Source: Fistulifera solaris (lineage: Eukaryota > Bacillariophyta > Bacillariophyceae > Naviculales > Stauroneidaceae). From it: a DNA stretch of 64,000 bases. The first letter of the stretch is position 1. Each line of letters begins with the position of its first letter. The stretch spans positions 1,239,501-1,303,500 of the forward strand of contig AP026132.1 of the NCBI GenBank assembly GCA_030295235.1, written 5' to 3'. The notes under the pieces are model-generated. The model searched no databases. It saw nothing but the letters and a program-made list of their open reading frames with translations, and had not been told where the DNA came from. Below are positions 1,815-43,312 of the stretch, piece after piece. Position numbers and translations under genes: made by a program.

Positions 1815-2826
1815 ATGGTTTCCTCTAAGTTGTTGATTAAATATCGATTAATTGTAACTTATGTGTAATAATCATGGCAATCATAATGGCAATCGCAATC
1901 GCAACCAATAAAAAATGTTGAGGGACGATGCTGGCGACGACAGACGACTTCTCTTGGTAACGAGCTCGTGTCTCGCCATTCACTAGTCGTCACTCCCACT
2001 TCAAGTCCATAGGCCGTAGGACATCGATGGTCCTCGGAAAAACTTTGAACACTTTCATACTCTATGACTGCTTGGGCTGACTGGGAAATAGAACCAAATT
2101 TTTTTGACTGTAAAATTTAGAGTTACTGTTACGACCAATTACTGTAGTTATAGTTATAGGGGCCGCGATATACGGAGTAATAAACACGAGCTATGAACAG
2201 ACTATGACATACAGTAAGCGATAAGCGCAATAATAACCAATAACAGCAATAACAGCTTGCGTTACCTCCGTCTTCCGTCGTAGACCCGTAGTACATCACA
2301 AATCACGACCAATGACCAATGCTACATGCTACGAGCTACGATCTACGATTTGCACAGTCATCGTGGACGTTGCACGTATCAGACTACAAACTATCCTATA
2401 GCCATAAAGCGTCTCGCTGTGGGCCTTTTTATCGGTACTGGCCTGGCGTTTGGAATTTGAATGAAAGGCGACAAAGCCATGGCAAAAAGGGAAAGAAGGA
2501 CGAAAGACATAACAGCGAAAAGGGATGCTCGTTTCGTTGTTAAAGATGCTCGGATTCGCATTAGGATGGATTTCATGCACAGCCTTTCGTGTTCCCTACT
2601 CAATCAATAACTTCATTCAGCTAGAGAAGCAGGCGCTTTGATGGACTCAGTGATAAAGAGTCGTTTTCACTTAGTCGTCGTTTTTGGTGTCGGTGGTTGG
2701 TGACTGATGATCAACACATCCGTTTGCTGACATTTCTCGCATTTACTAACGCTTTTTTGATAAGCCCTCACAAAAGATCATCGTTGCAAAACGGAATAAA
2801 AGCGATTACTTTCGACGAAAAGCATC
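1815..2826. other. Intergenic, about 1 kb
   Basis: It separates the starts of RPP30 (minus) and the cysteine-rich gene A (plus), so it holds both 5' regions. Short open frames at 2319-2603 occur on both strands and show no family signature. One copy of the recurrent 9-mer TACGGAGTA lies at 2171-2179. No RNA gene was recognised. Confidence 0.6.
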
Positions 2827-3381
2827 ATGATCAAGTTCCACCTCCTTATTAGCTTATTGTTCTCGGCTCCTCTCGTTGTTAATGGAAAGAACTTTTGGAA
2901 GACAAAACAAGAATCATTACCCGCACTTGTGGATGCCCCCGAGATGGTTGTCTATTATCTCAACAAAAAAGCTGTGTCCACAGCTTGTACCGAAACAGAG
3001 CTCTTGCACATTGACAACAAGATGCTTCCCGACATCGACAACTCTCTCACGGCAAATAACTTCGAAGCACCCGATTGGAAGATCGCCACCAACGACGCTC
3101 GACGCATTTTGTCGGCGGATAGAAGTCCCTCGAGTAACCCCAACTGCGACATTTGCAGAACGCGCTTCTCGCGTAGTCTTTGCAGTGTGATGTACAACTG
3201 CAAACTGCGTCGTCAGCTACGGAGCAAGCAAGAGAGAAACCTGCAAAACTTTTCTGGCCTGGCTTCGGACCTTATCAATAAATGCCAGAACAACATTGAC
3301 GAACTTTCGGATAGCGCAGAGCTTAGCGTTTCCTGCCAAAAAGCTATCAAGCATGCCAACTGTTACGTGGAATTCGTGTAA
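2827..3381 (+). CDS. Cysteine-rich RXL preproprotein A
   Basis: A 184-residue, intronless protein of a family with five members here. A signal peptide (LLISLLFSAPLVVNG) is followed by a conserved pro-like region: VVYYLN, a first cysteine (STAC), KMLPDID and NNFEAPDW. Then come ARRIL, a CDICR ... SLC ... NC cysteine module, RRQL and RNL, and a C-terminal NCYVEFV. All eight family cysteines and all three RXL tripeptides are present. In diatoms RXL tripeptides mark proteolytic maturation of several silica-associated proteins; that this applies here is inference. A secreted or cell-wall role is likely from the signal peptide, but no function is known to me. It lies 1.7 kb upstream of B in the same orientation. 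Confidence 0.8.
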   Translation: MIKFHLLISLLFSAPLVVNGKNFWKTKQESLPALVDAPEMVVYYLNKKAVSTACTETELLHIDNKMLPDIDNSLTANNFEAPDWKIATNDARRILSADRSPSSNPNCDICRTRFSRSLCSVMYNCKLRRQLRSKQERNLQNFSGLASDLINKCQNNIDELSDSAELSVSCQKAIKHANCYVEFV

Positions 3382-5112
3382 AAGTGAATGTGAAGGTGAT
3401 AAGAGGGGGTCGAACGCAGAAAGATACTCCGACTAACCAATCGATGGAGCGATAATGCGCACCGTTTATAATTCATTTCTCAGCATGCTTTTAGTTGTGA
3501 ACAACCCCTTTTGAAATCTATTTTGTATAGTTGCTTGACCGTTCTGAATAAGAATTCTGGCCACCGGCATGGTCAATTCATTTAGTGGTACTAATGATTT
3601 TGTAGGCTCACTGGTTGTGGTGGTCCAAGGTGATTCATACAAGCCAAAGTCCGTAAGCTACGTGCCACATCTCCCTCTTCAATCTAGCCGACTTAAGTAA
3701 CTAATGTTTCCGAGATCTACTCACGACTTAGCTCCCACTCACGATCCACGATTTCTCTACGTATGGTGAGGAGCCAAAAGCAAGGTGATAGATAAATCAT
3801 TATCGACGAAGGTTCAAGGTTCAACTTCATTGCTCAGTCGCTCAGGGAGACACGGGAACGCACCTCTGCTTGGTACATTTTTCTACGGGGGCCTACGTGA
3901 GTGTACACTTTTTCCCGAACCTTCCAGGGAGACGTGACCAATGCATGCGCCAAGAGGAAATTAATGGGGACCGCGCTTTGTCAGTCACGAGGACGGGCTA
4001 CTGTCCCCGCTCGTTGATGCCATCCGTTGCTTTTCACGCACAAACAAATATTCCGAAAGTAAGACACTTAAACACGTAACTTTTTTATTTATATTAATAG
4101 GAAGGGAATTATTTTTTCAAGTAGCTTACTTTCGATTTGCAATGTTCTTTTATTCAATGACAAAGATCGATCGATGCTCCGCGATGAAACGCACTGAAAA
4201 TAAGAGCGGACCTCGTGGTCGGAGGCTGGCTTACACAAAAGGTGAGAGTGGCCTCCCGAGCGGCACTCATGATAGCGGGGACACTAAGCCGTCACGAGGA
4301 AAAAGCACGGGCGCATCGCGTGATAATGAAGTAGCGCGGTCCCCATTAATTTCCTCTTGCATGCGCAATCCCGTTTTTAGGCCTAGAGTACGACCTTAGA
4401 CTCTGGAGTAGACCCAAGTCTCTGCTTCGTCTCCCATATTCGAGCTTTTAACTGCAATAAGAGTAATCTTAAAATCTTTCCACTTTTTCTCGTGCTGCGG
4501 TTTGTTTGCCTTTCATTTTTTCATAACTTTCTTTTGCATGTTCCATCGATCCCATAGTTCGATGAGCAGGAAGCAGTAAGGCTTTGATCTTTTATTATCT
4601 TTCATCTTGTCGATGGTTGTTGAATGATGCTTGAATGATGATTGACGATTGACGACTTCTTGACTTTTACTTCTTACTACGTACTTGCTGCTTGCTGACT
4701 GCTGACTCTAGGACCAAGATGCCCAAGAACAAAGATCACGCCAGACTTAGTGCATTATCATTATTCCTGAGTGACTTCAATTTTGGTTCTCATTTCTCCA
4801 CTTAACTGTAGTGTCAATTGTAGTAACTGAATAGGAAAATGTCTTTTCCGAAAGTTTTCTATAGCCCTTGCAAGTAGAGATGAAGTCATAGCTTACAGCA
4901 ATAATTAAAACGTTCGAGTTCCCTACTCTTCCTTAAGTTCATCAATCTTGCATCTCGCATTCGTGATCATGACCATTCTAATTTTTGTTGGTTGAAAAGC
5001 GAAAGCTGCTTTTCTGTGCTTGATGTAATTAACCAGTGTCAGAAATGCTAAGATTTCGTTTGCACAAATAATCGCTTGCTGCGCCAAGTTGAATAGAATA
5101 TCAAACGCCAAC
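3382..5112. other. Intergenic between genes A and B
   Basis: This 1.7-kb gap contains an imperfect inverted-repeat element (arms at 3951-3977 and 4333-4359) described separately. The short open frames at 3870-4079 and 4142-4399 overlap its arms and look non-coding. The rest is AT-rich with simple-sequence tracts and no recognisable gene. Confidence 0.6.
3951..4359. repeat. Inverted-repeat element with 27-bp perfect arms
   Basis: The 27 bases at 3951-3977, beginning CAAGAGGAAATTAATGGGG, recur as an exact reverse complement at 4333-4359. Going inward from both arms a weaker similarity continues (for example GTGTCCCCGC-like segments), with different spacing on the two sides. This suggests an old fold-back or non-autonomous transposon remnant. 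No clear target-site duplication was found outside the arms, and there is no transposase frame. Confidence 0.6.
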
Positions 5113-5664
5113 ATGAAGCTCTTGATAATCAGTCTGCTATCAGCTCTCTCTTTCGTCCTCGGCCAGTTGGATGGAGAATTGTTCGCACCGGCGGAGCCGC
5201 CCGAGATGGTCGTCTACTATGTGAACTGGCAAGCCCCATCCACTGTCTGCAATCAAACCGAACAAGCGTACATTGACAAGAAGATGCTACCCGACTTGGA
5301 CATGACTCTGGTGCAAAACAACTTTGAGACGCCCGCTTGGGAAGTGCCCTCCGCCGCCACACGACGTGAACTTCAAAATGGCAACGCCAATCCAAACAGT
5401 AACGGCAAAGCCAACAAATGCGACATCTGTCGAGAGCAATACTCTCGCAGTCTTTGCAACGTAATGTACAACTGCAAAAACCGTCGTGAGCTACATGGGG
5501 CTGAAAAAGAGAAGCGTGAGCTGCAAACTCTCGAAGAACTTCAAGCAGAACTTCTTAGTGCTTGCCGGGGCACTATCATGGATCTTTTGTACAGCCGACA
5601 AATCGGTCGCAACTGCAAGAGAGCACTTCGATGGGCCCGATGCTACGTCCAGGTTATGGAGTAA
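5113..5664 (+). CDS. Cysteine-rich RXL preproprotein B
   Basis: Second member of the family, 183 residues from the ATG at 5113, which is followed directly by a typical signal peptide (LLIISLLSALSFVLG). It has the same order as A: VVYYVN, STVC, KMLPDLD, NNFETPAWEV, then TRREL, an asparagine-rich linker, CDICR, SLCNVMYNC, RREL, KREL and a C-terminal CYVQVME. All eight cysteines are conserved, and the third RXL is REL where C, D and E have RKL. The linker NANPNSNG between the first RXL and the CDICR module is longer than in A, showing that this segment tolerates change. An AATAAA-like signal follows the stop near 5675. Secretion is predicted; the function is unknown. Confidence 0.8.
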   Translation: MKLLIISLLSALSFVLGQLDGELFAPAEPPEMVVYYVNWQAPSTVCNQTEQAYIDKKMLPDLDMTLVQNNFETPAWEVPSAATRRELQNGNANPNSNGKANKCDICREQYSRSLCNVMYNCKNRRELHGAEKEKRELQTLEELQAELLSACRGTIMDLLYSRQIGRNCKRALRWARCYVQVME

Positions 5665-6205
5665 TGGAGTCCAATAAATTGAAATGGACTCAAGGCTTAT
5701 CTAATTTCTCGCGATCGCCTTCATCTTCGGTGAGAGGCCCCGTTAATAATTATGTATATGAATGAGTTAGATCTCCATATTGATCATTGATGTGACCTGT
5801 TGGCTTCTTGGCCGGTTTGTGATTTTTAAGTAGTTATGAATCCTTCTTCAAATTCGTAGAGGTCCGAGATGTAGCTTCTCTAAGGTCTTATGCTGTTATT
5901 TCCTCCGTGCTCTCTCCTCCTCGCATTTGCTGCCCTTTCAACTTTCAATCTCCTCCAAAAACACAATTAATGCTGCGCAATACGATGGTGTTGATTGTTC
6001 CTATGATTAGGGGTACCAATACCGCTTTTAGTCACGAGAAGAAATTTCGCTACTGTAGTGCAAGAAGTACCTTCGAAAACTCCCTCCAACCGCACGCAAG
6101 AACCGCTTCTTTATTATTGAGAAGCATACCAGTAAACGATGGCCAATCACTTAACAACCTAAAACGACAAGAAGATGCTTATCACTGGTATTCATAAGAA
6201 ATAGA
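5665..6205. other. Intergenic downstream of gene B
   Basis: About 540 bases with no recognisable gene. A 96-codon open frame at 5907-6197 has no domain signature and an unbiased composition, and is treated as chance. Confidence 0.5.
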
Positions 6206-6540
6206 TTAGAGGTCGAATGTTGAAACGATTGGCTCGAAGACGCAACAGCGACAATTTACAAGCGACAGGCTCTCGTCTTCAAGGAGCCTGTCAGACATGT
6301 TCTGGATGCCGACGACCGCTTTGCAATTTGTGTGTTTATTGTCGCGGCTTAGTTCTAACAACAAGCCATCAACGAAAATGCCTCTTTCGACTGTGTCTCC
6401 ATTTTTCATATACCGAAAAGACGAAACGGAGACTTGCATTTGCCGCGCAACGATCATTTCAATCTTTATCAATGGGCGAACGTGCTTCGGATGATACAAG
6501 TACCAGTAATCATCATTACAATTCGCCGCAAGCAAAACAT
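6206..6540 (-). CDS. Possible small hypothetical protein, start uncertain
   Basis: The minus strand is open for about 110 codons and its translation looks protein-like (WYLYHPKHVRP, VARQMQVSVSSFRY, GIFVDGLLLELSRD), whereas the opposite frame is rich in Cys, Arg and Ser as expected for antisense. The frame has no ATG near its beginning unless one base is missing around 6520-6525, in which case the ATG at 6540 would give exactly 112 codons. That start would be only 10 bases from the divergent ATG of the SET-like gene at 6551, so at least one of the two starts may be wrong. No family is recognised. Confidence 0.35.
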
Positions 6541-6550
6541 TTTTGCGACA

Positions 6551-8383
6551 ATGTCAAAATATTTTACTCAGAACACACAAAATCCCCGTGGAGTGCAGGA
6601 AATGGCAGTTTGATTCATCCTGGCGTGTTTGGGTTCACAAGAGACAACAATGGGGGATCGCCCTTCGTGTCTCATCGGATCCGCCGCGCTACGATATTCG
6701 ATTGCTGGATCCGTCGCCAAGACCTTCCAACTGCAGCATCAGCATTAACAGCAACTATTCAATCCCCCATCCTCCACAAAGGGCGAATGCTACTTCGAGT
6801 AGTACGAAGAACGCCTCAATGCTCACGAATGTGCCTGCCTATGTGAGTAACTCTTTTTTGCAATAAGAGAAGTTCACTCAAGAACCTTCGCTTCTAACAA
6901 TTATTGCGTTTCATGGTTCTTCCTTTGATAGATGTTCGAACTCGATTGTCATATCCGCTACCTCGAACGAAAGAAAAATCGATCGTCCGCTGTAAGAATC
7001 TCTCCCCAAATCAGTCAACCCTTTCTTCACGCTTGGCGAAGGTCTTCGGGAGATATTATTCAAATCAAAGGTACATGGATGGGTGATCATCGCGAGGAAA
7101 CGCAACAATATAAGGTCAAAGTAGACCAAGCGATGATTCAACCGATTGGATTGAATAACGACAAACTAGAAGAAAGACAAGAGACGATAGAATCGTTTCC
7201 ACTAAATTCGTTTTGGGTGACGTTCGATGATTTACAAGCGGGGTACTATTGTGCAAAGTCATCAGAGTCGTCGGTGCCCATTACTGATACTAACGACAAC
7301 CCACCGTTCTTCATTCAATACAAAGTTCCCCACATGCAGTTCACCATGCAACAGGAACCGCTCTTACCGCGAGTGTCGTTTGTTTACAATGATCGATTCC
7401 ACATCCAACTGCAAGTACTTCCTTCGAGACAAGCACCTCATGCGGGGTATGGATTGTTCGCTTGCGTGAATGCAGTTGACGACAACGATGACAGCAACGC
7501 ACCAAAAGCGTCGACTGTGGAAATACCAACGGGAGTATTGATTGATTTGGGTGTTTATGGTCCTCTGCGCCCCGAAGATCGAAAACCGTGGTCGGCAAGG
7601 CTACTCAAAAGTTACATTTATAGCTATCACTGTGGCTCATGGTTCTTTGAGACTTCCAAGGAGGATGATGCTGTTTTCGATATGACGGATGACGGTACCG
7701 GACAATTGCACGAGTTAGCCCGACGAAATGTTCTGATGTACGCCAACGAAACGTCGGGAGCCGAGCAAGATATTCAGTCGTTGTGGCCGATTTATGACCC
7801 TGAAGGTGCCGTGCACTTCTATTTGGGCCACCCGGATCCAGCCCAAGGACCGTTGCTATTACCCATCGGATGTCCTGTGGAGCTGCTGGTGGATTATGGA
7901 CCGCAATATGAACAAGAACGCGTGCGTAAAAATTACCCCCGTGTGACGGGAAACCACCTTCAGCACATTCAAGAATGCTTGGCGGAAGAAGATCAAGCCA
8001 TTCTACAGGATTTACAAGAATTGTCCTCGGAGGAAATGGAAGCTGACGCTATCCCCTTTTTAAAAAATCTCGTTCAAGAGTGGGAAGTTATCGCTAGCGT
8101 CAGCGGACAAGCTTGCAAGTCGCAGCTACTGGAACGAGCACTGATCGTGACCATGATTCTTATAGATAATCATCGCGGGAAAAACGTTTCGTCGGAAAGC
8201 AATCTTAATACCTTACGTACAATCCTGTCGAATCTATGTTCATGGTTTACTTCTGATCAGCAAATGAAAAGTCACATGACATCGAATGTTGCGTATCATG
8301 AATTGCTTCGACGTATTTTGGGCGATTACGATTGGAATAGCGTTCCGGCACTCTTGTTTCGACGGGCCGTTGTGGCGCTGTAA
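6551..8383 (+). CDS. SET-domain-like protein (putative lysine methyltransferase)
   Basis: Two exons: 6551-6842 and 6932-8383, joined in phase 0 across an 89-base intron (GTGAGT ... GATAG). Exon 1 has one extra base in the AAA at 6600-6602; correcting it gives 97 codons that run into exon 2 (484 codons with stop). The first 100 residues are Ser/Pro-rich. The later part carries SET-like features: GYGLFACVNA with IPTGVLIDLGVYG, and ELLVDYGPQY, corresponding to the start of the fold and the DYG..Y motif near the cofactor and active site. The classical NHS/RFxNHxC motif is not obvious, so activity is uncertain. SET proteins methylate histones or other proteins using S-adenosylmethionine. It converges on ALG6 with a 33-base gap. 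Confidence 0.55.
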
Positions 8384-8416
8384 ATCGACAAGTTGATAAC
8401 AACAACTTCACTTTAG

Positions 8417-10066
8417 TTACAACGTTTTTTCCTTGATTATGTTTGAACTACTGCTGTAGCGTTCAGACGGAAGCATCGATACTAATCGAAACACCGTCCA
8501 AAGATAGGCAACTCCTATCAAGGCACAACCAATCACACTCCACAAGACGGGAAACAAATCCGGCCAGTGGCCTGGTGGCACAACCCAACATTCCATTACG
8601 TGCAATAATAACATCAGCATATACGCCATTCGGCAAAACCAAACTGCCATTTGCGATGCTTTTCTTGTCGAACTTGGATCGAACTCAACCCAGAGTTGCA
8701 AAACGCTTACAAAGATGATGCCACTAGCTACGTAGGCCGTTTGCAACCGATCTATTACGAGCAACGGCCACAAAGTCCACATGGAAACAAACGAAAAGTA
8801 TTCTGCCAATACCGGCGCTTCACTCCACAAGAGTGAAACGGGTGCGGTGGCTAATAGCAGGCTCTTTTCGTGAACCTGAAAACTGGCCAGAAAGAATGCT
8901 AAGGCGCACGCACTAGTGGCCCACAACAAGACGCGCTCTTGCTCTTGCTGCGACTGAGTCGACGATGCAATGGTCCTCCCAATTGGATATCGTTGTCCGA
9001 GACGAAAACCTTGTATGCAGGCGGGTGACATCAGTAATGCAGTGAGCCCCAGAGAAGCACGGAATTGATTTGCCGCCGATAACCGTTGCCGTATGCGAAA
9101 AGGTTGAATCGACAAAGCACACCATACATTGGCAACTTTGCCTTCAAACAATCCCCGTTGCACCGGAAATATCCGAATCAGTATTTGTTTCAGCTCTTTC
9201 CACGGCTCAGATGGGTTGTTTGAAAACACAATCGGTCCCCAGAGTAGCGCGAACGTCAAGAGCACTGTTACTCCGAGTAGCAGAAAAGATCGAAGGATGG
9301 TCCTACGATGAGCGTAACACCGCCCCAACAAATAACAACCCACGACCGGTGCATAATACAATGTCATTTGTTTAAAGGAGAGTGCCATGCAGAAAGCAAT
9401 AGCACCCAGTAGAACTTCTTGTGTTGGCGGTTGTGTGATCCAGTAAAAAGACCATAACGACAACCCAATGGCAGTTGTATTGTATTGAAAGTGCCCATGA
9501 TCGATCAACACCAATGCCGGTTGCAGGAGAGCAAAGACGTACGAAAAAAGGTTGATCTCTTGTGATTGTTGTTGATATCGTCGTCGACGACACCAAGCAT
9601 AGATAGCTGTAAAGTAAAGCAACACATCCAAGGCTAGGACGGTCGCTCTCATAAACGGCTTGTGTCGAATCTCCTCTTCATATCCCCGTGACGTAAACAA
9701 AGCCACCGTTTCCGGTCCTACGAGAATATGAGAAAGATACCCGCATACATACGACACATACGCCGTCAAAGGCGGATAATCCAGTCCCCAATACTCCAAA
9801 TCGTAGTGATACCATTTTTGCAACGGCAAATGATACGTCAACTCCATCCAATGTCGTTGCGCTTCATAGTCTCCTCCGTACGCTTGTCTCGCACCGTGAT
9901 GATTGTTTTGTCCGGAATGCGGTTGAAATCCGATCAGGACGCGATAGAATATAAGAAGTAAAGTCAGAGTGATTGTTGTGAGGCTGATTGACGAGAACGC
10001 ATTGCTATTTTGTTGTTGCTGCGACGCAAAAGAGTTCTTCGGTTCTGCTACACGATTTCTCTCCAT
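8417..10066 (-). CDS. ALG6: Dolichyl-P-Glc:Man9GlcNAc2-PP-dolichol alpha-1,3-glucosyltransferase
   Basis: ALG6 adds the first glucose to the lipid-linked N-glycan precursor in the ER lumen. The 549-residue, intronless product begins with a Gln/Ser-rich cytosolic tail and a first membrane span near residues 28-45. It then shows the diagnostic luminal segment GGDYEAQRHWMELT and YWGLDYPPLTAY containing the catalytic-loop acidic residues, and about eleven hydrophobic segments. FPVQRGLFEGKVANVWC separates ALG6 from ALG8, which has a different sequence in that loop. Length and topology match the family. Its promoter region is shared with the divergent HCF101 gene. Confidence 0.9.
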   Translation of the reverse strand: MERNRVAEPKNSFASQQQQNSNAFSSISLTTITLTLLLIFYRVLIGFQPHSGQNNHHGARQAYGGDYEAQRHWMELTYHLPLQKWYHYDLEYWGLDYPPLTAYVSYVCGYLSHILVGPETVALFTSRGYEEEIRHKPFMRATVLALDVLLYFTAIYAWCRRRRYQQQSQEINLFSYVFALLQPALVLIDHGHFQYNTTAIGLSLWSFYWITQPPTQEVLLGAIAFCMALSFKQMTLYYAPVVGCYLLGRCYAHRRTILRSFLLLGVTVLLTFALLWGPIVFSNNPSEPWKELKQILIRIFPVQRGLFEGKVANVWCALSIQPFRIRQRLSAANQFRASLGLTALLMSPACIQGFRLGQRYPIGRTIASSTQSQQEQERVLLWATSACALAFFLASFQVHEKSLLLATAPVSLLWSEAPVLAEYFSFVSMWTLWPLLVIDRLQTAYVASGIIFVSVLQLWVEFDPSSTRKASQMAVWFCRMAYMLMLLLHVMECWVVPPGHWPDLFPVLWSVIGCALIGVAYLWTVFRLVSMLPSERYSSSSNIIKEKTL

Positions 10067-10754
10067 TCTAAGTCAAAGCTGCATTGAAAGTGCTAACACA
10101 GAAACTTCAAAACAAAATTGTATGATCAATTCGATTACAAATGGGTTGCCACGGTAATAGTATTATGTAATGCAATAAAAGGAAGCCGATCAAAGTGCGC
10201 GCACTCTATAATTGTTCAAATGGCAGGCGCATTCACGTACCCAGCAAATCAGGCTACGTATTTTCGCGTAACTCTCGTAAGGAATTTATTCATCGACAGA
10301 GGGAAACCCGGATATTGCGCAATTTCGATCACACCAAGTTTTCGCATCTTTTCGACGCCAATGTCAACTATACGTTGCCCCACATCGCCAATGCATTGCC
10401 GAAAAACATACGAATGCTATTTGAAGCAAGAGTTAACTGTTTTCTTTTAATCAAAATTGGAAAGTTAACAGGGGTTGGGCAGCAATTCGGTGCGATCAAC
10501 GAAACAAGTCATGACTGAAATCCAGTCCTGGCGAAATACGGAACACACTTTGTGCCATAGTCTAGTAGAGGTCGATGGCGCACGTTGAAGTTGTGAAGAG
10601 AGCAAAAACGTCACGGAGATTTTCCCCTGCACCTTTTCTCTTGCAGCCGACGATGGCCGACGATAATGAAGGTAAAGTTTGCAAGGAAAGGAAAAGGTAT
10701 AATAAGCACAAAAGACCCAAATTCAAGCGCTATACTTCTACACCTTCGTGAAGG
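10067..10754. other. Divergent intergenic region between ALG6 and HCF101
   Basis: This 690-base stretch must hold both promoters. It also contains one copy (10250-10312) of a dispersed repeat that recurs at 42.7-43.0 kb. Open frames of about 110 codons here lie over the repeat and are not credible genes. Confidence 0.5.
10250..10312 (+). repeat. Dispersed 70-bp repeat, copy 1
   Basis: The segment with CTACGTA, CTCTCGTA and then CGACAGAGGGAAACCCGGA aligns with two copies at 42733-42803 and 42945-43017. It is the most divergent of the three. Confidence 0.6.
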
Positions 10755-12455
10755 ATGCACTGCTCTACTGCTATACGTATATTCGCAACAATCGTTCTTC
10801 TTCCGAGAGCAACTTTATCGTTTGCACCTCAAACAATCGGTCGTTTGACACCGACGACGCTTTCTCCATCCTTTATTTCGATTACACAAACAACGACGCG
10901 TCTCCGAGATGCTAGTAGCAATACAGTGGAGATTCCTACCGAATGGCAAGGCGTCGTTTTATCGAAATTAAAACAAATTCAAGATCCAGATTTGAATGTC
11001 GATATTGTGACGGCTGGATTTTGTCAAAATTTGCAATATGATCCTGCAAATGCCAAATTATCCATGGATCTAGAATTAACGACACCGGCGTGTCCTGTCA
11101 AAGATCAATTTCAAAGAGATTGTGAGCAGTTGTTACTCGAATTACCGTGGATTCAACAAGTCGAAGTGACTCTGACAGCACAAGCACAAGGTACTTCCTC
11201 GACGTCCTTGGCTGGTTTAGCGCAAGTCGGTGCCATTGTAGCCGTTTCTTCGTGCAAAGGAGGTGTCGGAAAATCAACAACAGCCGTCAATTTGGCCTTT
11301 TCTTTGCAACAACTGGGAGCGACAGTAGGAATATTGGATACCGACTTGTACGGACCCAGTTTACCCACCATGGTGACGCCCGATGATGATATTGTGCGAT
11401 TCGTGGGTCGCCAAATTGCACCATTACAACGCAATGGCGTACGATTGTTGAGTTTTGGACATATTCATGATCAAGCGGCCGTCATGCGAGGTGCCATGGT
11501 CACGCAACTGCTCGAACAGTTCCTCGATGTGTGTCAGTGGGGCAAGCTCGATTATCTCATTTTGGACATGCCTCCGGGAACGGGAGATATTCCCTTAACG
11601 CTAACACAGAAACTCAATTTGACAGCAGCTGTTATTGTCACCACACCGACGGAACTCAGCTTTCAAGATGTCAAGAAAGGAATTGAAATGTTCGATACCG
11701 TCCAAGTACCGTGCATTGCCGTCGTGGAAAATATGGCGCATTACGAACTACCGGAATCGATGAAAGAAACCGTCGCAAAAGCGGTAAAACAATCGTCTCA
11801 TGTAACAAACGCGGAACAAGTCACACAAGAAGTATGGAAGGCATTGCAAAATACACCATTGCCTATCTTTGGAGCCGGACACCGATCGACGTTGCAACAA
11901 ATGTACGGTATTGAACAACATTTCAAAGTACCGCTCATGGATCAAGTGGCGTATGAAGGAGATCACGGGACACCATTTGTGTTGCAACAACCCGATTCCT
12001 CCGCCGCGCGCGTGTATCGATCATTGGCACAAGCGGTGGTCCAAGAAGTCGCCAAGGTCAAATACACACACCCGAATCAGCGTTTGTTTCTAGAATACAA
12101 TCGAGACGAGCATGTTGTGGCATTGAAACAAGGGACCAGCCCACAAGATGAAGAGATCAGTACATTGTCTCCAGCGACCATTCGTCGTGCCTGCCGTTGT
12201 GCGGCATGTGTCGAAGAATTGACGGGCCGACAAATTTTGTTGCCGAGCATGGTGTCGGAGAATATTGCACCGCTTCGTATGCAATCGGTAGGAAACTATG
12301 CTTGGAGTATCGATTGGAGTGATGGACATCGCTCTTTATATCCTGAAAAGAGTCTAAGGGCTTTGGCATCGCAAAAGCCAAAATCTACCACAAAAGACTC
12401 GTCGTCGACGACACTGGCATCGGTGGTTCGAGAACGCGTCCAAGAACCTGTTTAG
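10755..12455 (+). CDS. HCF101: HCF101-type Mrp/NBP35 family Fe-S carrier, plastid-targeted
   Basis: HCF101 is a P-loop ATPase that assembles or transfers [4Fe-4S] clusters in plastids, notably for photosystem I. The 566-residue protein starts with a signal peptide ending ATLSFAPQ, the diatom plastid motif with Phe after the cleavage site. An N-terminal DUF59 domain (about 60-145, with LTTPACP) is followed by the deviant Walker A KGGVGKS (168-174), DTDLYGPSLPT and DMPPGTGD of the Mrp ATPase. A C-terminal DUF971 region (CRCAACVEELTGR onward to WSDGHRSLYP) completes the three-domain order that separates HCF101 from cytosolic NBP35. No introns are needed. It converges on the aminotransferase gene with 100 bases between stops. 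Confidence 0.9.
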   Translation: MHCSTAIRIFATIVLLPRATLSFAPQTIGRLTPTTLSPSFISITQTTTRLRDASSNTVEIPTEWQGVVLSKLKQIQDPDLNVDIVTAGFCQNLQYDPANAKLSMDLELTTPACPVKDQFQRDCEQLLLELPWIQQVEVTLTAQAQGTSSTSLAGLAQVGAIVAVSSCKGGVGKSTTAVNLAFSLQQLGATVGILDTDLYGPSLPTMVTPDDDIVRFVGRQIAPLQRNGVRLLSFGHIHDQAAVMRGAMVTQLLEQFLDVCQWGKLDYLILDMPPGTGDIPLTLTQKLNLTAAVIVTTPTELSFQDVKKGIEMFDTVQVPCIAVVENMAHYELPESMKETVAKAVKQSSHVTNAEQVTQEVWKALQNTPLPIFGAGHRSTLQQMYGIEQHFKVPLMDQVAYEGDHGTPFVLQQPDSSAARVYRSLAQAVVQEVAKVKYTHPNQRLFLEYNRDEHVVALKQGTSPQDEEISTLSPATIRRACRCAACVEELTGRQILLPSMVSENIAPLRMQSVGNYAWSIDWSDGHRSLYPEKSLRALASQKPKSTTKDSSSTTLASVVRERVQEPV

Positions 12456-12555
12456 AACGATAAAACACATCATCTTATCAAATAAATCATGCAATCTGCA
12501 CCTTTCTAAAGTTTATGGTATTCTTCTCTATTGAAATGTAAAATTGAGAGCCTGG

Positions 12556-14082
12556 TTATTCTGCGACGTTCGCACAAGCCCGCTCCAAAAAGGAAATGAT
12601 CCGATGTCCTGCTTCTTCTAATACGGCTGTGGGTGCCCCAAACACGATACGGAAAAAGTTATCCGACGCTTTCATTCCAAAGCAAGATCCAGGTAACACG
12701 AGCACATTTTCTTGCTGCAACAATTCTCGCGTCCATTCGGCATCGCTTTTCACGGAAGTTGGGTGAGGCGGAGGCACGATTTGAACCATGAGATACATGG
12801 CACCCTGCGGACGATATACCTTCAAGTACGGCGATTGTCGCAGCACTTGTTCGACGGCGTGTGCCTGTTGTCGCAATTTCTGGCGCCACTCCTCTTTCCA
12901 AGTACCAATCGTCGTTTCATCGGGACCCGTGGGCGCGAGCGCAGCGGGAATCGCCCATTGCACGACATGACTGGCACCCATGATCACTTGCGCCAATTGC
13001 TGTGCTCCGTGTCGAATGGATAGCAATGTGCCATAAATGCTGTTTAATGTTAAAATGGACAAATGAGATAGACATACCACAGTAATTTCGTAAGTTTTCA
13101 TCAAACGACTTACTTGTCATGAAACACGAGCCAACCGACACGCCATCCAGGAACCAAATACTGCTTTCCCAACCCCGAAGCTTGGACGATTGGCACATGC
13201 GGCGACGGAATCATTTCATTGCGAACACTCGCCAAGCTATGAAAGACACAGTCGTCGTGCAATGTCATATCTCCATAAATTTCATCCGAAATGACCATGA
13301 GATGATATTTGTCACACAATTTCAAGAAGTCTTGCAAATGGGTCTTGGAAAAAACGGCCCCGGTCGGATTTGAGGGATTGTTGATGAGAATGGCTTTGAA
13401 GGAACAGTTGTGGGTCTGTTGCAACAAAGTTTCTAGTTCGACGAGATCCATGTGCCATTCTTCCGTCTCAGTGTTGTAAACGAGAGGATACATTTGCGTT
13501 TGACATCCCAAAGATTGACAAATCACATTATAAAGCGGAAATCCTGGTGACGGAATCAACAATACATCGTGAGGAGATTGCAACGTCGCCCGGAATAAGA
13601 GTTCTAACGCTCCCGAACATCCGTTGGTAACAATGACGTGATTGGATGTTACATTTAAAGAAGGATTGTCGCGATTGCAGTGTTCGGCGATGGCTTGACG
13701 GGCTGACAACGTTCCGACGGCGGGGACGTAGCCAGCCGATTGCAAGAGATGTTTCTGAACGGCTTGTACTACCACTGGACATGGAGGAAAGTAAGAGGAC
13801 GGATCACCCAGCTGAAGACGTTGACGATTAGGATTTCAATGATAGGAAATAAAGTGATCGAAAAGTTTCTTTTCTCTCGTTACTTACTGCAAGTGAAATG
13901 TGTGATTTGTCATGTTCTTGCACGGACGCAAGAAAAGGATCGACAATAGCACGTATAGGATTATACGTTCTTTGCGCTTCCATTGAAGCAGGGATTACCG
14001 GCCAGTTGAGTGACAAGAGTGTGACTTTGGAAGCAGCATTGTTTCCTTCTTCTACAACAACAACGGAAGTGGGAGAAGCCAT
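12556..14082 (-). CDS. Class I aminotransferase, tyrosine-aminotransferase-like
   Basis: Three exons (13888-14082, 13114-13811, 12556-13039) separated by 76- and 74-base GT-AG introns give 458 residues. This PLP enzyme transfers amino groups between an amino acid and a 2-oxo acid. Visible landmarks are NPIRAIVD near the N-terminus, the phosphate-binding region SGALELLF, NPSNPTGAVFSKTHL, SDEIYGDM, and the Schiff-base lysine in ASGLGKQYLVPGWRVGW, which together match the tyrosine/nicotianamine aminotransferase branch. FFRIVFGAP lies near the C-terminus. There is no clear presequence, so a cytosolic location is plausible. Substrate (tyrosine, aromatic or other) is not decided by the sequence. 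Confidence 0.85.
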
Positions 14083-14763
14083 TTCGTTTCCTTTTTTCTA
14101 GAAAAGAAAGCAAGAGTAGCAAAATAAAATAATAATGTTATGATGTCGAGCGTTTACCAGGTATGCGAACACATAAACGTAAACGATAAAGAGATCCCTT
14201 TCAACTAAATTAATTGATTTCTCCCCAAAAGAACAAATGCAGATGGGCGTCTCCTTTCCGAATTCCTTTCACATCAAAAGGAGAAGAATTCTCAATCCAT
14301 TCACGAATGTCGTTATGCCGTGACTGACGAAAGATTCAATAAAGATTCATGACTGAACACTCACGACTCACGATGTTCTTGATAAATAAAAACCACGATG
14401 AACGATGAAACTCGCCTCCGCCGTTTTAGACACGACGAGCGTCATCGTTTGCACGCATCTCGTCCGCACCATGGTCATTAAAGGAACACATAACATCAAG
14501 TTAATGAACAAACCATACAAGCATTTAAATGCAACAATGTGCTCCATGTTACTGCTATCCTGTTTTCTTTTTTTTTTTAAAAGGCGGAGGGCGATCGAGT
14601 TTGAAAAATACAAAAGAAAAGATCAAATGACACATAATGAAACTATCATTATTATGAAATGTTATCGTTCTTCATGTGAAGAGAAACTGTGTGGAGAAAT
14701 ATTCTAAGCGCTGATTACAGCATGACGCCGTTCGAATAGCCGGAAAGTGTGGACCTTGAGTCT
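14083..14763. other. Intergenic, no gene seen
   Basis: This separates the start of the aminotransferase from the 3' end of cysteine-rich gene C. Open frames at 14368-14707 are mutual shadows without family features. A homopolymer T run lies near 14570. Confidence 0.5.
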
Positions 14764-15243
14764 TTAAACGAAGTCCACATAACAGGTCGAACTTGAAAGG
14801 GCCGTTCGGCAATTGAGGCTGAGGTTGGTGTCAGCAGAAAGGGCGGCAATTTCCTCCTCGCATTCCTCAAGAAGCTCCGAGCCCAAGTCATCGTCCTCGC
14901 TTTCCTCCAGTTTACGAAGTTGACGACGAACCCGGCAGTTGAACATGGCCCGACAGAGAGACGCTGAGTGATAACGGCGGCAGTAGTCACAGTTTGATGT
15001 TGAAAGCTTGCGGCGGTCATCGTCATCAGACACTTCCCATACCGGAGCTTCGTAACCGTTTGCGAGAAGAACGTCGTCGAGGTCCGGAATCATCGCATTT
15101 GAAATGTAGGTCAGTTCTGTGGCGCTACAGACGTCGTCGGCAGCTTGTTCATTGAGGAAGTAGACGACCACCTCGGGGGCCTCTGCCAATTGTGCAGCGA
15201 CGGAAGCGAAAATCGAAAGCAAAGTGATGAGAAGGAACTTCAT
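14764..15243 (-). CDS. Cysteine-rich RXL preproprotein C
   Basis: Third family member, 159 residues and the shortest. The signal peptide FLLITLLSIFASVAAQ is followed by VVYFLN, DDVC, AMIPDLD, YEAPVWEV and an acidic DDDD preceding RRKL. The cysteine module CDYCR ... SLC ... FNC, then RRQLRKL (two RXL motifs only one residue apart), an acidic EESEDDD stretch and LNCRTAL, TCYVDFV follow. It is the most acidic copy, and the canonical SRS before the fourth cysteine has changed to SAS. All eight cysteines are present. It stands on the strand opposite to A and B, about 9 kb from B, with D and E following in the same orientation. Confidence 0.8.
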   Translation of the reverse strand: MKFLLITLLSIFASVAAQLAEAPEVVVYFLNEQAADDVCSATELTYISNAMIPDLDDVLLANGYEAPVWEVSDDDDRRKLSTSNCDYCRRYHSASLCRAMFNCRVRRQLRKLEESEDDDLGSELLEECEEEIAALSADTNLSLNCRTALSSSTCYVDFV

Positions 15244-16826
15244 GGTAGACTGTGTAAGAGAGATATCGGTATCGAATGTTGTTTTGATGGCAAATGAATT
15301 TTATGAGATAATGAAGCTGCCAAGCTTGGAAACATTGACAAGTCGTCCAAAATGCGGTGGCAGAAATTTTGAAATGTGGGTTCGTCCAAGAATGACGACT
15401 CCCACCAATCATTAAATAACTATATAACAATCAAGACTTCCTAGCTTATAGACGAGTACCGGACGTAAAGAATAGAAAATTGACGTCGTTCGAAGAACTC
15501 TTAGCATCCGTTTTCTTTGCATCAAATATTATTGCCTCTCTAACAAGTAGGCCTTTTCGACAGAAAAATCTAGGCTCTATGGAATCTGCCGAACCTTATT
15601 GGCCCGGAAGATAAGCTTACAAGACAGAGAGGGTGACGTGGACGGTGGACGGCAGGTGAGAGGTGAGTGGTGAGTGGTGAGTGGTGAGTCAGGATTACGA
15701 ATTCGAACCGGATCCGCACGTACAAAAATGAAAGGACAAACGACAAAGACAAAAAACAAAACAAGTCTAAATTTTTAGACAATACTACGGAGTAGACCCG
15801 ACATCAGAGATTTGTAAAGGGTACCAGTAAAGGGAGGCTGGCATAAATGCAAGCAGGCCGACGAACGTTCAAAGTTCAAAGTTCAAATAATATGAGACAA
15901 GCACGACTCACTTTCACACGACCGACAACTATAGTTCGACGGCCTCTAGAATACCGCAATACCGTACGGTATAATACCAGTATAATACCGGTATTCGGGT
16001 ATTCGGATTTTCGATACCGGTATTTGAAGTTAGTTCAAACAAGACTGGGGCACGTACGACTGGATTCCCGTGATTCCGCGGCAGTTAACGTGAAGATGCG
16101 AGAGCTTTCCCGTCAAGGCGCTGAAACCCAATACGGTATCGATACCGTACGATACCGTACAATACCGTATTCCGGTATCGAAAATCCTGATACCGGTATT
16201 TGAAGAACTATACCGACAACCCGCAACTGCAACCACAACCACAACCACGCAACCACGACAGGGCTGACTATTGACATCTGACGAAAACGGAAACATTGAA
16301 TTTTGAATTCGACTCTTCGATCTGTTTTCGACTTTGGACTTGTCAAGATTGTAGACTGTAGACATGCCGATGTCCGCCTCGCCGTACATTAATTTGTTGA
16401 GAAATGAAGAAAAGCGTAAAGCCTGAAGCCCCAAGTTCCAAGCAGACCTAGCTAGGCTACAGGTAGTAACCGGCAATCGGCACTCGGCACGCAACAGCAA
16501 TCGACAGTCAGCCCCCTCTAGCTTCTCTCTAGAGTTTCCCTCTCAAGAGAATCGGCAGTCGCGCTTGCGTCACAAAATAACCCTAAGGTGACTACGGAGT
16601 AATGAACTTAGGGGTATTTTTTTCTTGCTAGGCACTAAGCGCCATCCTAATTTAGATGATAAGTAATGGAGAGTTTAATGAAAGATGGCAAATAAATAAT
16701 GAATAACCAAGAGATTATTATGGTATGAACATGTCATTGTGTCTCGCGCGAATACGATCTTTACGCTATAATTGAGAATTCCGAACCAGACTCCACGTGA
16801 CCGCCAGCTATCTGATTTTTCGGCAA
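15244..16826. other. Intergenic between genes C and D, with repeats
   Basis: This 1.6-kb stretch has no credible gene. It holds a short GTGAGTG tandem tract at about 15656-15690, a TACCGG/TACCGT-rich palindromic block at 15959-16206, and two TACGGAGTA motifs (15786-15794 and 16593-16601). Open frames within the block translate only its repeated units. Confidence 0.6.
15959..16206. repeat. TACCGG/TACCGT-rich palindromic block
   Basis: Two segments, 15959-16029 and 16131-16206, are built from overlapping ATACCGGTAT, TACCGTACGGTA and similar self-complementary units, and both end with GATACCGGTATTTGAAG. They are separated by about 100 bases of unique sequence. Many alternative hairpins are possible. 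Confidence 0.7.
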
Positions 16827-17423
16827 CTAGACCAACTCCACATGACAGACAGAGGCTTGAAGGGCGGCTTTGCAACTACGGCTGAGAAATCTGTTGTAGG
16901 AAAGACTTACAATGCTTTGCTGGCATTCGGCCAAAAGGTCAGCAGCAAGATCATTCAGTTTTCTTTCGTCAGCTTGACCATCACGAAGTTGGCGACGAAA
17001 GCCACAGTTAAACATTCCATTGCAGTAGCTGCGTGGGTAGTAACGTCTGCAGAAATCACAATTGGAAGAGCTCGTTGTGGTGGAAGCAGTGGCTGCGCTG
17101 AACGAGTCGATCTTGCCAGAGACGAGGACACCGTCGGTGCCGTCGGTATCGATGAGCTGGCGCCGTGTCGCGGCCCCCGTAGTCTGCCACTGGGGAATTG
17201 CGTAGTTGTTTTCTAGCAGTGTCATGTCAATGTCGGGCATCATTTTACTGTCGAGGTATAGAAGTTCTTGTTCGGTACATGCCGTCGGCGAGGCTTTTTC
17301 ATTGACGTAGAAGACAGCCATACCAGGAGCCTCCTTTGGCGTGAATGCCGAAGCATCCAACGTCATGAGTTGTCCATTGACAGCAGTGAGAGTAAAAATT
17401 AAGGTGATGAGGAGAAACTTCAT
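16827..17423 (-). CDS. Cysteine-rich RXL preproprotein D
   Basis: Fourth family member, 198 residues from the ATG at 17423, chosen because it begins the signal peptide (FLLITLIFTLTAVNGQ); upstream in-frame codons have no such feature. It has VFYVN, PTAC, KMMPDID, NNYAIPQW and TRRQL. The segment between the first RXL and CDFCR is expanded by about 25 residues (DGTDGVLVSGK, then a Ser/Thr/Ala run), the largest linker in the family. SYCNGMFNC, RRQL, RKL, SRSCKAAL and CHVELV complete the pattern with all eight cysteines. The first eight residues are almost identical to those of C, suggesting a recent duplication or conversion. A fold-back element lies about 375 bases upstream. Confidence 0.8.
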   Translation of the reverse strand: MKFLLITLIFTLTAVNGQLMTLDASAFTPKEAPGMAVFYVNEKASPTACTEQELLYLDSKMMPDIDMTLLENNYAIPQWQTTGAATRRQLIDTDGTDGVLVSGKIDSFSAATASTTTSSSNCDFCRRYYPRSYCNGMFNCGFRRQLRDGQADERKLNDLAADLLAECQQSIVSLSYNRFLSRSCKAALQASVCHVELV

Positions 17424-17798
17424 GGTGGTATGAGTTATGTTACCTGCAGGGGTTTGGTTTTGTGAAGGGCGAAAGAAACTGGTTGATGAAAAGATGAAAC
17501 AACAAACAACGACCAACAATAACGCCGTCTGGCACGGATCAAGGCTCAAGATTAAACTTGTTAGAAAAAGTAGGGAAGGCATAAGCGGTACCTGAATCTG
17601 ACTATTGCCCTTTAAAAACCCAAGGGGAAATACTATGTAAATATTGTACAAACTCTGTGACAGAACGGAGAATTTGGGGCTCGGGATTCGGGATGAATGA
17701 TTGATGATTACCTGGTACCAGTACTGGTAGGCAATTTTTCTCGTTCTCTCTCCTCTCTCCCCGATCAATTCAAAGTTCAAAGCCAAAAGCCTATCTGG

Positions 17799-18110
17799 TA
17801 CTGTACAGCTGGGATTCGATCGTCATTACATAATGTACACCTCGTAGAAAATGTACCAGAGAGTTTACGAAAAATTTTTCCGTATAACTTTACGTACAAA
17901 TTTCCCAAAACATATTTTGTAGCTCTCAAAATTCTGAATCTATCTATAAATTTATCTTTTTCATTCGAAGTTTTCATGAAAGATAGAAATGAACATGAAA
18001 ATGGGAAATTTATACGTAAAGTTATACAGTAAAATTTTTCGTAAAGTCTCTGGTACATTTTCTACGAGGTGTACGTGGTGTAATGACGATCGAATCCCAG
18101 CTGTACTGTA
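17799..18110. mobile_element. Fold-back (MITE-like) element with 109-bp inverted arms
   Basis: The arms 17799-17907 and 18002-18110 are reverse complements with about eight mismatches by eye, enclosing a 94-base AT-rich loop. Both ends contain GTACAGCTGGGATTCGATCG. There is no internal coding capacity, so this would be a non-autonomous element. A TATCTG hexamer flanks both sides but leaves unequal arm ends, so the target duplication is uncertain. Confidence 0.8.
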
Positions 18111-18140
18111 TCTGTACGTGCTAAGGAAAAAGTATGCTTT

Positions 18141-18165
18141 ACGGTACCGGTACCGGTACCGGTAC
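18141..18165. repeat. GGTACC short tandem tract
   Basis: Four consecutive GGTACC-type units form a self-complementary run directly beside the fold-back element. It translates as a Tyr-Arg alternation that is not a gene. Confidence 0.8.
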
Positions 18166-19442
18166 AATTACCTTGTACAATCTTTAAAGCTTGTTCTCAT
18201 TGATAACTGATACGCCCCTCGGTCATTGTTGTCACAAACTGAACAGCTGTAACGACGAGAGACAAGAGACAAGAGACAAAAAGAAAGTGACTCGGGACTG
18301 ACGATCGGATGATTCAGAAGTCAGAAGTGATGAGTCCTGATCCTGGTCCGGATCCAGTTGCGACGACGAGGAAAAAGATCACAATGACGATGAATAAAAG
18401 TAAATACCAGGTACCAGGTAAATAAATAAATACTCCGTACCTATTCAAGCCAACGATTGTTTCACAATATGCTTCGTTGCTTCCTAGTCATAGTGAATTG
18501 CGATAAGTGCTGCTATTTGAATTTCTTCGGCAGATGAAGAAATATTTGGTTGCAGATTTCGACGAAAAATTACAATATACAAAAATGGATTGTGCAGGCT
18601 CCACTCAGTGTGATAAAAGGTTGGCGGGAAACTCGTTGATTAAGTCACATCCTGACACAGTTTCTTGGATACCGGCTTCTCGATTTCTCGTCATGGTGGC
18701 CCCGATAAAGGAGCCACCGGTAGAGACACCGTTGTGTTCGGTCTGTCAACTCTATCAAGGCCAGAAAATTTCTTACCGTCGATGCATAATGCTCTCGTAC
18801 AGTATACAAAATGGCAACATTGAAATAATACGTCATTTCGAGGCGAAGTTATAGTCGAGCGGTTCAACTTGAGGTCGAAATATGGACAGGACAATGGTTT
18901 CAAGGTTGTTCAACTCGTATTTGTTGCAGTATGCAGCATGCAGCATGCAGAATGCTGCTTCGGTTTTTTCAGTCAATTAACAAATTGCTTGCTTGCACAT
19001 TCGATGTATGTAGCCTCATTTGAATAAGATACGGCCCAATCGCCTCGCGCGCTGCGTAGGGATTCTGACCTAATTATTTCTTAAAATAAAATAAAAATTC
19101 AGTGACGCCGTCAAGTGCCCCTAAATATTGCGTACCATGAGCCAATTCATCAGATCGTTAGCTCTTTTGGTAATTGTTTTTCCTTGGACCGAAAGAATTA
19201 TAAAACTAGCTTCTACGAAGCCAAATTTTCCTAACGAATAAGATAGAATCACTTGAGAAGAAATTGTCCCCAGCGCATTCTAGGACAGTCGACAAGGTTT
19301 AGCTTTTACCTAAATTCTTCTACAACACAAAAGATTTTGACAAAGTAATGTCTATGAAATAAGTTTATGATCACGTAATTTAGTCTCCTATCTGAATGTA
19401 TTCACAATGCTAAACGGCAGCAACCTTTTTCTTGAACGCCAT

Positions 19443-19931
19443 CTATACGAATTCAACGTGGCAAGTAGAACCTGCAAGGGCTGCTTTGCAAGTTGCGGTG
19501 AGGAATCGGTTTCTTGACGAGATCAAAGCAACATTGTCTTGACACATTTGCAGCATCTCGGCGCCGAGCTCGGTAGTGTCTAACTTGCGCGTAGCGTCTT
19601 TCTGACGAAGCTGACGACGGAAGCCGCAGTTAAACATTATGTTGCAGTAGGAGCGGCCATATTGTTGACGGCAAGTATCGCAGGTATTGTTCAACTTGCG
19701 TCGGGTGGCGTCAGTCGCCGTGAACTCCCATTCAGCCGGATCGAAGTTGTTCGAGATGAGAGCCATGTCGAGGTCGGGCACCATTTTGCTGTCGATGTAG
19801 GTGAACTCCTCAGGGGTGCAATCAGTGTCGAGGGCGTTCGCGTTCACATAGTAGACTTTCACTTCAGGGGCAGCAAGCTGTGCAGAGACAGATGCGGCAG
19901 TGGCGAGCAAAGCAATGATAACGGACTTCAT
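19443..19931 (-). CDS. Cysteine-rich RXL preproprotein E
   Basis: Fifth family member, 162 residues. The signal peptide VIIALLATAASVSAQ leads into KVYYVN, DTDC, KMVPDLD, NNFDPAEWEF and TRRKL. The linker to CDTCR is only about three residues (NNT), the shortest in the family. GRSYCNIMFNC, RRQL, RKL, ATCKAAL and TCHVEFV follow, with all eight cysteines. With D it shares NCGFRRQLR, so D and E group together by eye, as do A and B (SLC..MYNC). Secretion is predicted; no catalytic motif is seen. Confidence 0.8.
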   Translation of the reverse strand: MKSVIIALLATAASVSAQLAAPEVKVYYVNANALDTDCTPEEFTYIDSKMVPDLDMALISNNFDPAEWEFTATDATRRKLNNTCDTCRQQYGRSYCNIMFNCGFRRQLRQKDATRKLDTTELGAEMLQMCQDNVALISSRNRFLTATCKAALAGSTCHVEFV

Positions 19932-43017: not shown

Positions 43018-43312
43018 CAGAACGTCTGTAAGTGTCTTCTGCAGACGTCAGACATCATGGACATCATGATCCAGCGTCACACAAAATTTCTTGACGAAAT
43101 TTTCTTCTTTTCTCATTTTTCGAAGCCCTACCTGGAAAGGAAATAACACGCTACCTGGTACCAAGGAAAGAACTTCCATCAAGATAAAGACCTTTTCAAG
43201 ACTTTGCCATCGAGAACTATCTATTAGTTTACATATCATTGTAACCATCTTGTCAAATGGTGATTTTGCTTGCAATAAAAAAGACAGTGATAGCAAAGTT
43301 GTGTCGCCTGTG

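Follow-up and report, generated by a model that had tools for sequence, protein, structure and literature searches.

Conserved R-x-L sites in a family of short eight-cysteine proteins, probably secreted, of the diatom Fistulifera solaris

At the start of a 64,000-nucleotide stretch of the genome of the diatom Fistulifera solaris (hereafter the window; positions 1,239,501 to 1,303,500 of contig AP026132.1, here C15, in a genome of 51.7 Mb), five genes, A to E, encode homologous short proteins with eight invariant cysteines. They belong to a larger family in which the tripeptide R-x-L (RXL) is found at two fixed places in every member. A region that follows the signal peptide and ends in R-x-L, the RXL domain, is described as typical of many diatom biosilica proteins (PMC5525289), and RXL sites are said to be known so far only from biosilica-associated proteins (PMC5647440; all published work is cited here from extracts of the papers). 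By virtue of its conserved R-x-L, and with a signal peptide predicted from hydropathy, the family fits the class of RXL-bearing diatom secretory proteins, which is a class and not a homologous family. We propose, with a probability of roughly 0.5, that its members are secreted, disulfide-bonded preproproteins of the diatom cell surface that are processed at RXL and most likely reside in the cell wall, either the frustule or the organic casing. An initial annotation of this DNA had described genes A to E as a family of five secreted eight-cysteine proteins, possibly undescribed; that interpretation is partly supported here, although it overlooked both the RXL motifs and the members beyond the five.

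All five genes are intact open reading frames (ORFs), and proteins B to E are 42–47% identical to A. The starts of B and D were taken at ATG (5113 and 17423), the listed ORFs beginning at TTG further upstream. The family is not confined to these five, however: the genome holds at least 17 gene loci, 15 of them intact and two frame-broken, a lower bound given by the identical set that was returned in three own-genome searches with different members (one with E up to 0.001, two with E up to 10). Besides A–E, C15 carries loci K and J, 50–59 kb upstream of A; C16 carries B–E, K and J; F is represented by dispersed copies, one on C17 and one on C18, whose sequences are close to gene E; and G has single copies on C19 and C11, which are 45% identical to each other. 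In an unrooted tree, starred branches group K with J and join the two homoeologues in each of B, C, K and J, whereas the D and E pairs fell below the starred mark and the other forks were weak, A and the two G copies being long-branched.

Fistulifera solaris has been characterized as allodiploid (PMC13276009) and as an allopolyploid with 42 chromosome pairs (PMC5935921). In agreement with this source, two guide sites published for F. solaris each have a single exact match on either contig of a pair (C38/C39 and C7/C8), and a primer specified for one homoeologue (fso:g510) has one match (sequences from Tables 1–3 of PMC13276009). The first 25 kb of the window are collinear with C16, with alignment blocks of more than 600 bases that are 72–88% identical. 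No counterpart of gene A was found at the matching place on C16, where no protein match was better than E 0.005; a segment of about 1.7 kb that includes this gene (window 2703–4418) is represented on C16 by about 130 bases, that is, by a presence/absence difference between homoeologues. Locus J is frame-broken in both homoeologues but at different places (C15:1181500–1186000 and C16:1115500–1120500), which reflects either parallel decay or assembly indels, and it is under the weakest constraint, with a ratio of nonsynonymous to synonymous substitution rates (dN/dS) of 0.44 over 123 codons. In addition, C8 carries a decayed remnant, interrupted by stops and by changes of frame (C8:155000–158500, match at about 1580–1963).

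Each of the 15 intact members has exactly eight cysteines, all in invariant columns, as the initial annotation had noted for A–E (in A, C54, C107, C110, C119, C125, C153, C170 and C179); W, P and N positions are also invariant. The cysteines are grouped as one in segment 1, four in a module with the spacing C-x2-C-x8-C-x5-C, and three in segment 3, and the sites RXL1 and RXL2 stand between these groups. Other marks reported earlier fared less evenly. The PD(I/L)D motif is present in all five window proteins and the linkers do vary in length, with linker 1 spanning 3–31 residues from RXL1 to the CDxC module; the VYY(L/V)N strand, on the other hand, is only loosely kept (VYFLN in C, VFYVN in D), and the CxVEFV-like ending is found in four proteins but not in B, which ends in CYVQVME. 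Secretion is probable, as judged from N-terminal hydropathy (19-residue maximum of 1.68–1.90 in A–E, down to 0.89 in the C16 copy of K). Past residue 20, no membrane-like hydrophobic stretch was seen in any of the 17 aligned proteins (19-residue maximum, 0.44–1.21).

Because dN/dS is low between the homoeologues of B–E (0.15–0.24) and the eight cysteines are kept in all 15 intact members, the family is not a chance product. Over the six intact homoeologous pairs (B, C, D, E, K and F), dN/dS is 0.147–0.245 at a dS of 0.36–0.95. By segment, these pairs give 0.10 for the module, 0.18 for segments 1 and 3, 0.25 for RXL1 with linker 1, 0.34 for the signal peptide and 0.38 for linker 2. Among paralogues, the four-cysteine module is the best conserved segment: mean identity over ten representatives is 0.66 for the module with RXL2, as against 0.46 for segment 1, 0.40 for RXL1 with linker 1, 0.38 for segment 3 and 0.25 for linker 2.

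The first two RXL sites are likewise invariant. All 17 members read R-x-L at both RXL1 and RXL2 (alignment columns 96–98 and 152–154), with a middle residue of six kinds at the former and five at the latter, and each site directly precedes a variable linker, given the column borders that we set. A third RXL floats within linker 2 in 13 of 17 members; in gene C it abuts RXL2 (RRQLRKL). The four K and J proteins have no RXL in linker 2 but carry an extra one in linker 1, ahead of the module. Linker 2 contains RXL in eight of the ten representatives, compared with 1.18 expected on shuffling, and none of 20,000 shuffles reached eight. In total, the representatives contain 42 RXL against a summed expectation of about 10, and the whole-protein count exceeds the shuffles at P ≤ 0.05 in nine of them. 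The longer form RR-x-L occurs at site 1 in 11 members and at site 2 in all 17. The C8 remnant has ERL and GQL at linker-1 positions and RRQR at site 2, yet it keeps RKL directly after site 2 and is therefore not a clean control for loss of RXL. The fact that RRQLR contains RxLR recalls the effectors of oomycetes, a parallel that we set aside as a mere likeness of four letters.

The same type of motif was found in the frustulins of this genome. As a positive control, we took the frames beside ricin-type lectin matches on C28 and C29, which proved to be tandem frustulin-like genes, identified by motifs of the acidic cysteine-rich (ACR) domain (CEGDC, CQGDCD or VPGC). In all eight distinct N-termini the signal peptide is followed by RRHL, RRKL, RRRL or LRKL, and in the six heads listed the RXL lies at residues 31–34. 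Three of these tetrapeptides recur in the family: RRKL at site 1 of C, E and the F copies and at site 2 of the C18 copy of F, RRHL at site 2 of the C11 copy of G, and RRRL at site 2 of J. Where an in-frame start is present, as in 16 copies, RXL1 lies at residues 77–93, after a conserved segment that contains Cys and Trp. Two other families from the same genome showed no enrichment overall. Of 63 trypsin-like matches, the ORFs of the best 20 contained 20 RXL against 21.1 expected, and CAP ORFs (six of six) contained 10 against 8.6, and neither alignment had a column with RXL in 70% of the sequences. The control ORFs were chosen mechanically; a clear signal peptide is missing at the start of several.

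We suggest the following route of maturation. The signal peptide would be removed first, after which a protease of the secretory pathway, the one that acts on frustulins as well, would cut at R-x-L. The N-terminal segment with one cysteine and the C-terminal segment with three would together form one small α/β scaffold. Since the N-terminal half has a single cysteine, the two halves would stay covalently tied after cutting if the outer four cysteines pair with one another. The basic four-cysteine module between the cuts would either be freed or be retained by disulfides alone. This module, being the best conserved part among paralogues, probably does the work of the protein, which might be, for example, the binding of another wall component. 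Two AlphaFold models, each built from five sequences, the window proteins, agree in giving the N-terminal half as strand-helix and the C-terminal half as helix-helix-strand, with a predicted local distance difference test (pLDDT) score below 50 around the module.

The same cuts can be read in another way, namely that they release the basic four-cysteine module as a diffusible peptide for recognition, mating or defence, the outer halves serving as a carrier as in prohormones. That RXL flanks the module at either end in all 17 members agrees with this, as do the high identity of the module among paralogues, the net charge of +1 to +5 between RXL1 and RXL2 (counted as K+R−D−E; the module itself is 28–56 residues long), the tandem multi-copy arrangement and the presence/absence of gene A. 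However, the outer segments are conserved beyond the needs of a carrier (identity 0.46 and 0.38; dN/dS 0.18), between homoeologues the module is not lower in dN than they are, and the modules are very alike across copies, unlike those of a fast-diversifying recognition peptide. We consider such a peptide unlikely. A related, prohormone-like version in which RXL cuts drop the linkers and free the basic module from within a single folded domain, while the two halves of that domain stay joined by a disulfide as in insulin, appears about equally unlikely; if it were true, the products of one wall-protein protease would include a two-chain scaffold as well as a family of conserved, cysteine-stabilized peptides.

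Alternatively, the proteins may be unprocessed, disulfide-bonded components of an extracellular matrix or adhesive, in which folding accounts for the conservation of RXL and the linkers are no more than loops. A stable fold is indeed indicated by the eight invariant cysteines and the invariant W, P and N positions. An invariant arginine also stands at column 151, ahead of RXL2, so arginine conservation is not confined to RXL. Nevertheless, a fold would not demand that RXL3 float within a linker of changing length, nor does it readily account for an invariant R, a free middle residue and an invariant L at two separate linkers, and the trypsin-like and CAP families have no such columns. We regard unprocessed matrix proteins as rather unlikely.

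Cleavage at RXL in cell-surface proteins is the reading that we prefer, and several observations weigh against it. RXL processing is itself still an unproven hypothesis for the known biosilica proteins (PMC5647440). Two homoeologous trypsin-like controls have three RXL each against 0.7–0.8 expected, so a local excess of RXL is not peculiar to proteins of the wall. Taken by itself, gene C shows no significant RXL excess (P 0.09), and the shuffle counts in general overstate independence, because the members are related, and serve as guides only. Segment 1, the would-be propeptide, is long and conserved, in contrast to the short spacers of the frustulins, and the conserved RXL could serve folding. 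The low dN/dS of the module (0.10) is due to a high dS (1.14), its dN of 0.116 not being below that of segment 3 (0.112). Finally, both AlphaFold models are of middling confidence only (pLDDT 62.6 and 69.0).

The profile search called for by the initial annotation gave no significant match to Pfam or NCBIfam, and no named domain family was recovered. A saposin-like type B domain was considered and rejected, as Pfam SapB_2 matches only one of 16 members, at E 0.16. No significant fold match was found, and no confirmed relative was found among viral contigs or prokaryote genomes. In the PDB, no significant sequence relative was detected, the sole matches being chains of the HNF4-α zinc finger (E 2.2–6.6). 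Together with the C-x2-C spacing, these matches might be taken to mean that the CDxC..C..NC module is a zinc or copper site and not disulfide-bonded. Yet they are at chance level, and cysteines of this kind are usually oxidized in proteins that enter the secretory pathway, which makes a metal site most improbable.

Among described diatom proteins, the frustulins of F. solaris (frustulins 1–11, PMC4712521) are among the closest in general features: like the family, they are probably secreted, have conserved cysteines, occur in tandem copies and carry RR-x-L (or LRKL, in frustulins). The distinguishing mark of frustulins is the ACR domain with hexapeptides of the CQGDCD/VPGCSG type (PMC4712521). 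The family has neither these hexapeptides nor a Pfam ricin-type domain, and its RXL is repeated and follows a long conserved segment. Since the motifs C..DCD, C.[GS][DH]C, VPGC and APGC occur in none of the 17 members, whereas the control frustulins have such motifs, identity with frustulins was rejected.

SiMat7-like proteins are described as a secreted diatom family with eight conserved cysteines, a signal peptide, RXL and a C-terminal transmembrane domain predicted in all (PMC5501833); silicanins are described as having a short RXL region followed by an NQ-rich domain that holds 18 conserved cysteines (PMC5525289). A signal peptide, RXL and cysteine conservation, with eight cysteines in the case of the SiMat7-like proteins, are thus shared with our family, which could on that ground be a divergent silicanin/SiMat7-like branch that has no membrane anchor and acts inside the silica deposition vesicle. 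Against this stand the transmembrane domain predicted there, of which there is no trace in the 17 aligned proteins, the 18 cysteines and NQ-rich domain of silicanins, and our own-genome searches, which gave only this family and its remnant, with uncertain sensitivity to such distant kin. Such a branch seems very improbable; as described, the SiMat7-like proteins and silicanins have a C-terminal membrane helix, which the short proteins of the family lack.

Silaffins, cingulins and silacidins have the RXL motif in common with the family but are described as having one or no cysteine and a predicted random coil (PMC5525289). Identity with them was rejected, given the eight cysteines, the predicted secondary structure and the low lysine content (1–7%) of the family; Ser+Thr amount to 9–18%, and KxxK occurs in only three of 17 members. 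The silicalemma-associated TpSAP proteins likewise carry RXL downstream of the signal peptide, and two of three have another near the C-terminus (PMC5647440); they differ from the family, which has no membrane helix. No description of the family was found in searches of an open-licence library, which omits most subscription papers, and the earlier suggestion of novelty is supported to this extent: the family is probably undescribed.

The positions of the five genes and their sites are listed in the table, where the coordinates of the RXL sites and of the module of A were derived from residue numbers.

Table. Genes A–E and their RXL sites in the window
Feature	Position	Strand	Remarks
Gene A	2827–3381	+	184 residues; signal peptide, segment 1 (1 Cys), RXL1, 4-Cys module, RXL2/RXL3, segment 3 (3 Cys)
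A RXL1	3103–3111	+	R93-I-L95
A 4-Cys module	3145–3201	+	C107 to C125 (C-x2-C-x8-C-x5-C)
A RXL2	3211–3219	+	R129-Q-L131
A RXL3	3235–3243	+	R137-N-L139
Gene B	5113–5664	+	183 residues; homoeologue B_C16 86% identical, dN/dS 0.15
B RXL1	5365–5373	+	R85-E-L87
B RXL2	5485–5493	+	
B RXL3	5515–5523	+	
Gene C	14764–15243	-	159 residues; homoeologue C_C16 71% identical, dN/dS 0.19
C RXL1	15004–15012	-	R78-K-L80
C RXL2	14917–14925	-	
C RXL3	14908–14916	-	
Gene D	16827–17423	-	198 residues; linker 1 of 31 residues, the longest; 66% identical to homoeologue D_C16, dN/dS 0.24
D RXL1	17154–17162	-	R88-Q-L90
D RXL2	16986–16994	-	
D RXL3	16956–16964	-	
Gene E	19443–19931	-	162 residues; linker 1 of 3 residues, the shortest; 81% identical to homoeologue E_C16, dN/dS 0.16
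E RXL1	19692–19700	-	R78-K-L80
E RXL2	19608–19616	-	
E RXL3	19581–19589	-	

In the 400 bp upstream of the 17 genes, no clear shared element was detected, the top enriched 8-mer being present in six of 17. The neighbours of the cluster encode an ALG6/ALG8 glycosyltransferase (8417–10066, minus strand), a P-loop NTPase with an iron-sulphur (FeS) assembly domain (10755–12455, plus strand), and a protein that combines biotin carboxylase and biotin-attachment domains (21278–23485, plus strand). A class I/II aminotransferase is encoded on the minus strand at 12556–13775 as two abutting frames, which suggests either an intron or a shift of frame around 13105. Four long frames on the plus strand (6932–8383, 34840–36246, 43091–45106 and 52370–53584; 404–671 residues) had no Pfam match at E 0.001. 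A silicon transporter gene (PF03842) also lies in the window, on the plus strand at 55609–57033, some 36 kb away from the cluster; C15 has a second copy roughly 19 kb beyond it, and C16 likewise has two.

If the proposed reading is right, the family adds a candidate group of cell-wall proteins that is unlike both the disordered silaffins and the membrane-bound silicanins. As a compact family with at least two fixed RXL sites per protein and 17 loci, it makes the RXL hypothesis directly testable, in an organism that has already been transformed and genome-edited (PMC4712521, PMC13276009).

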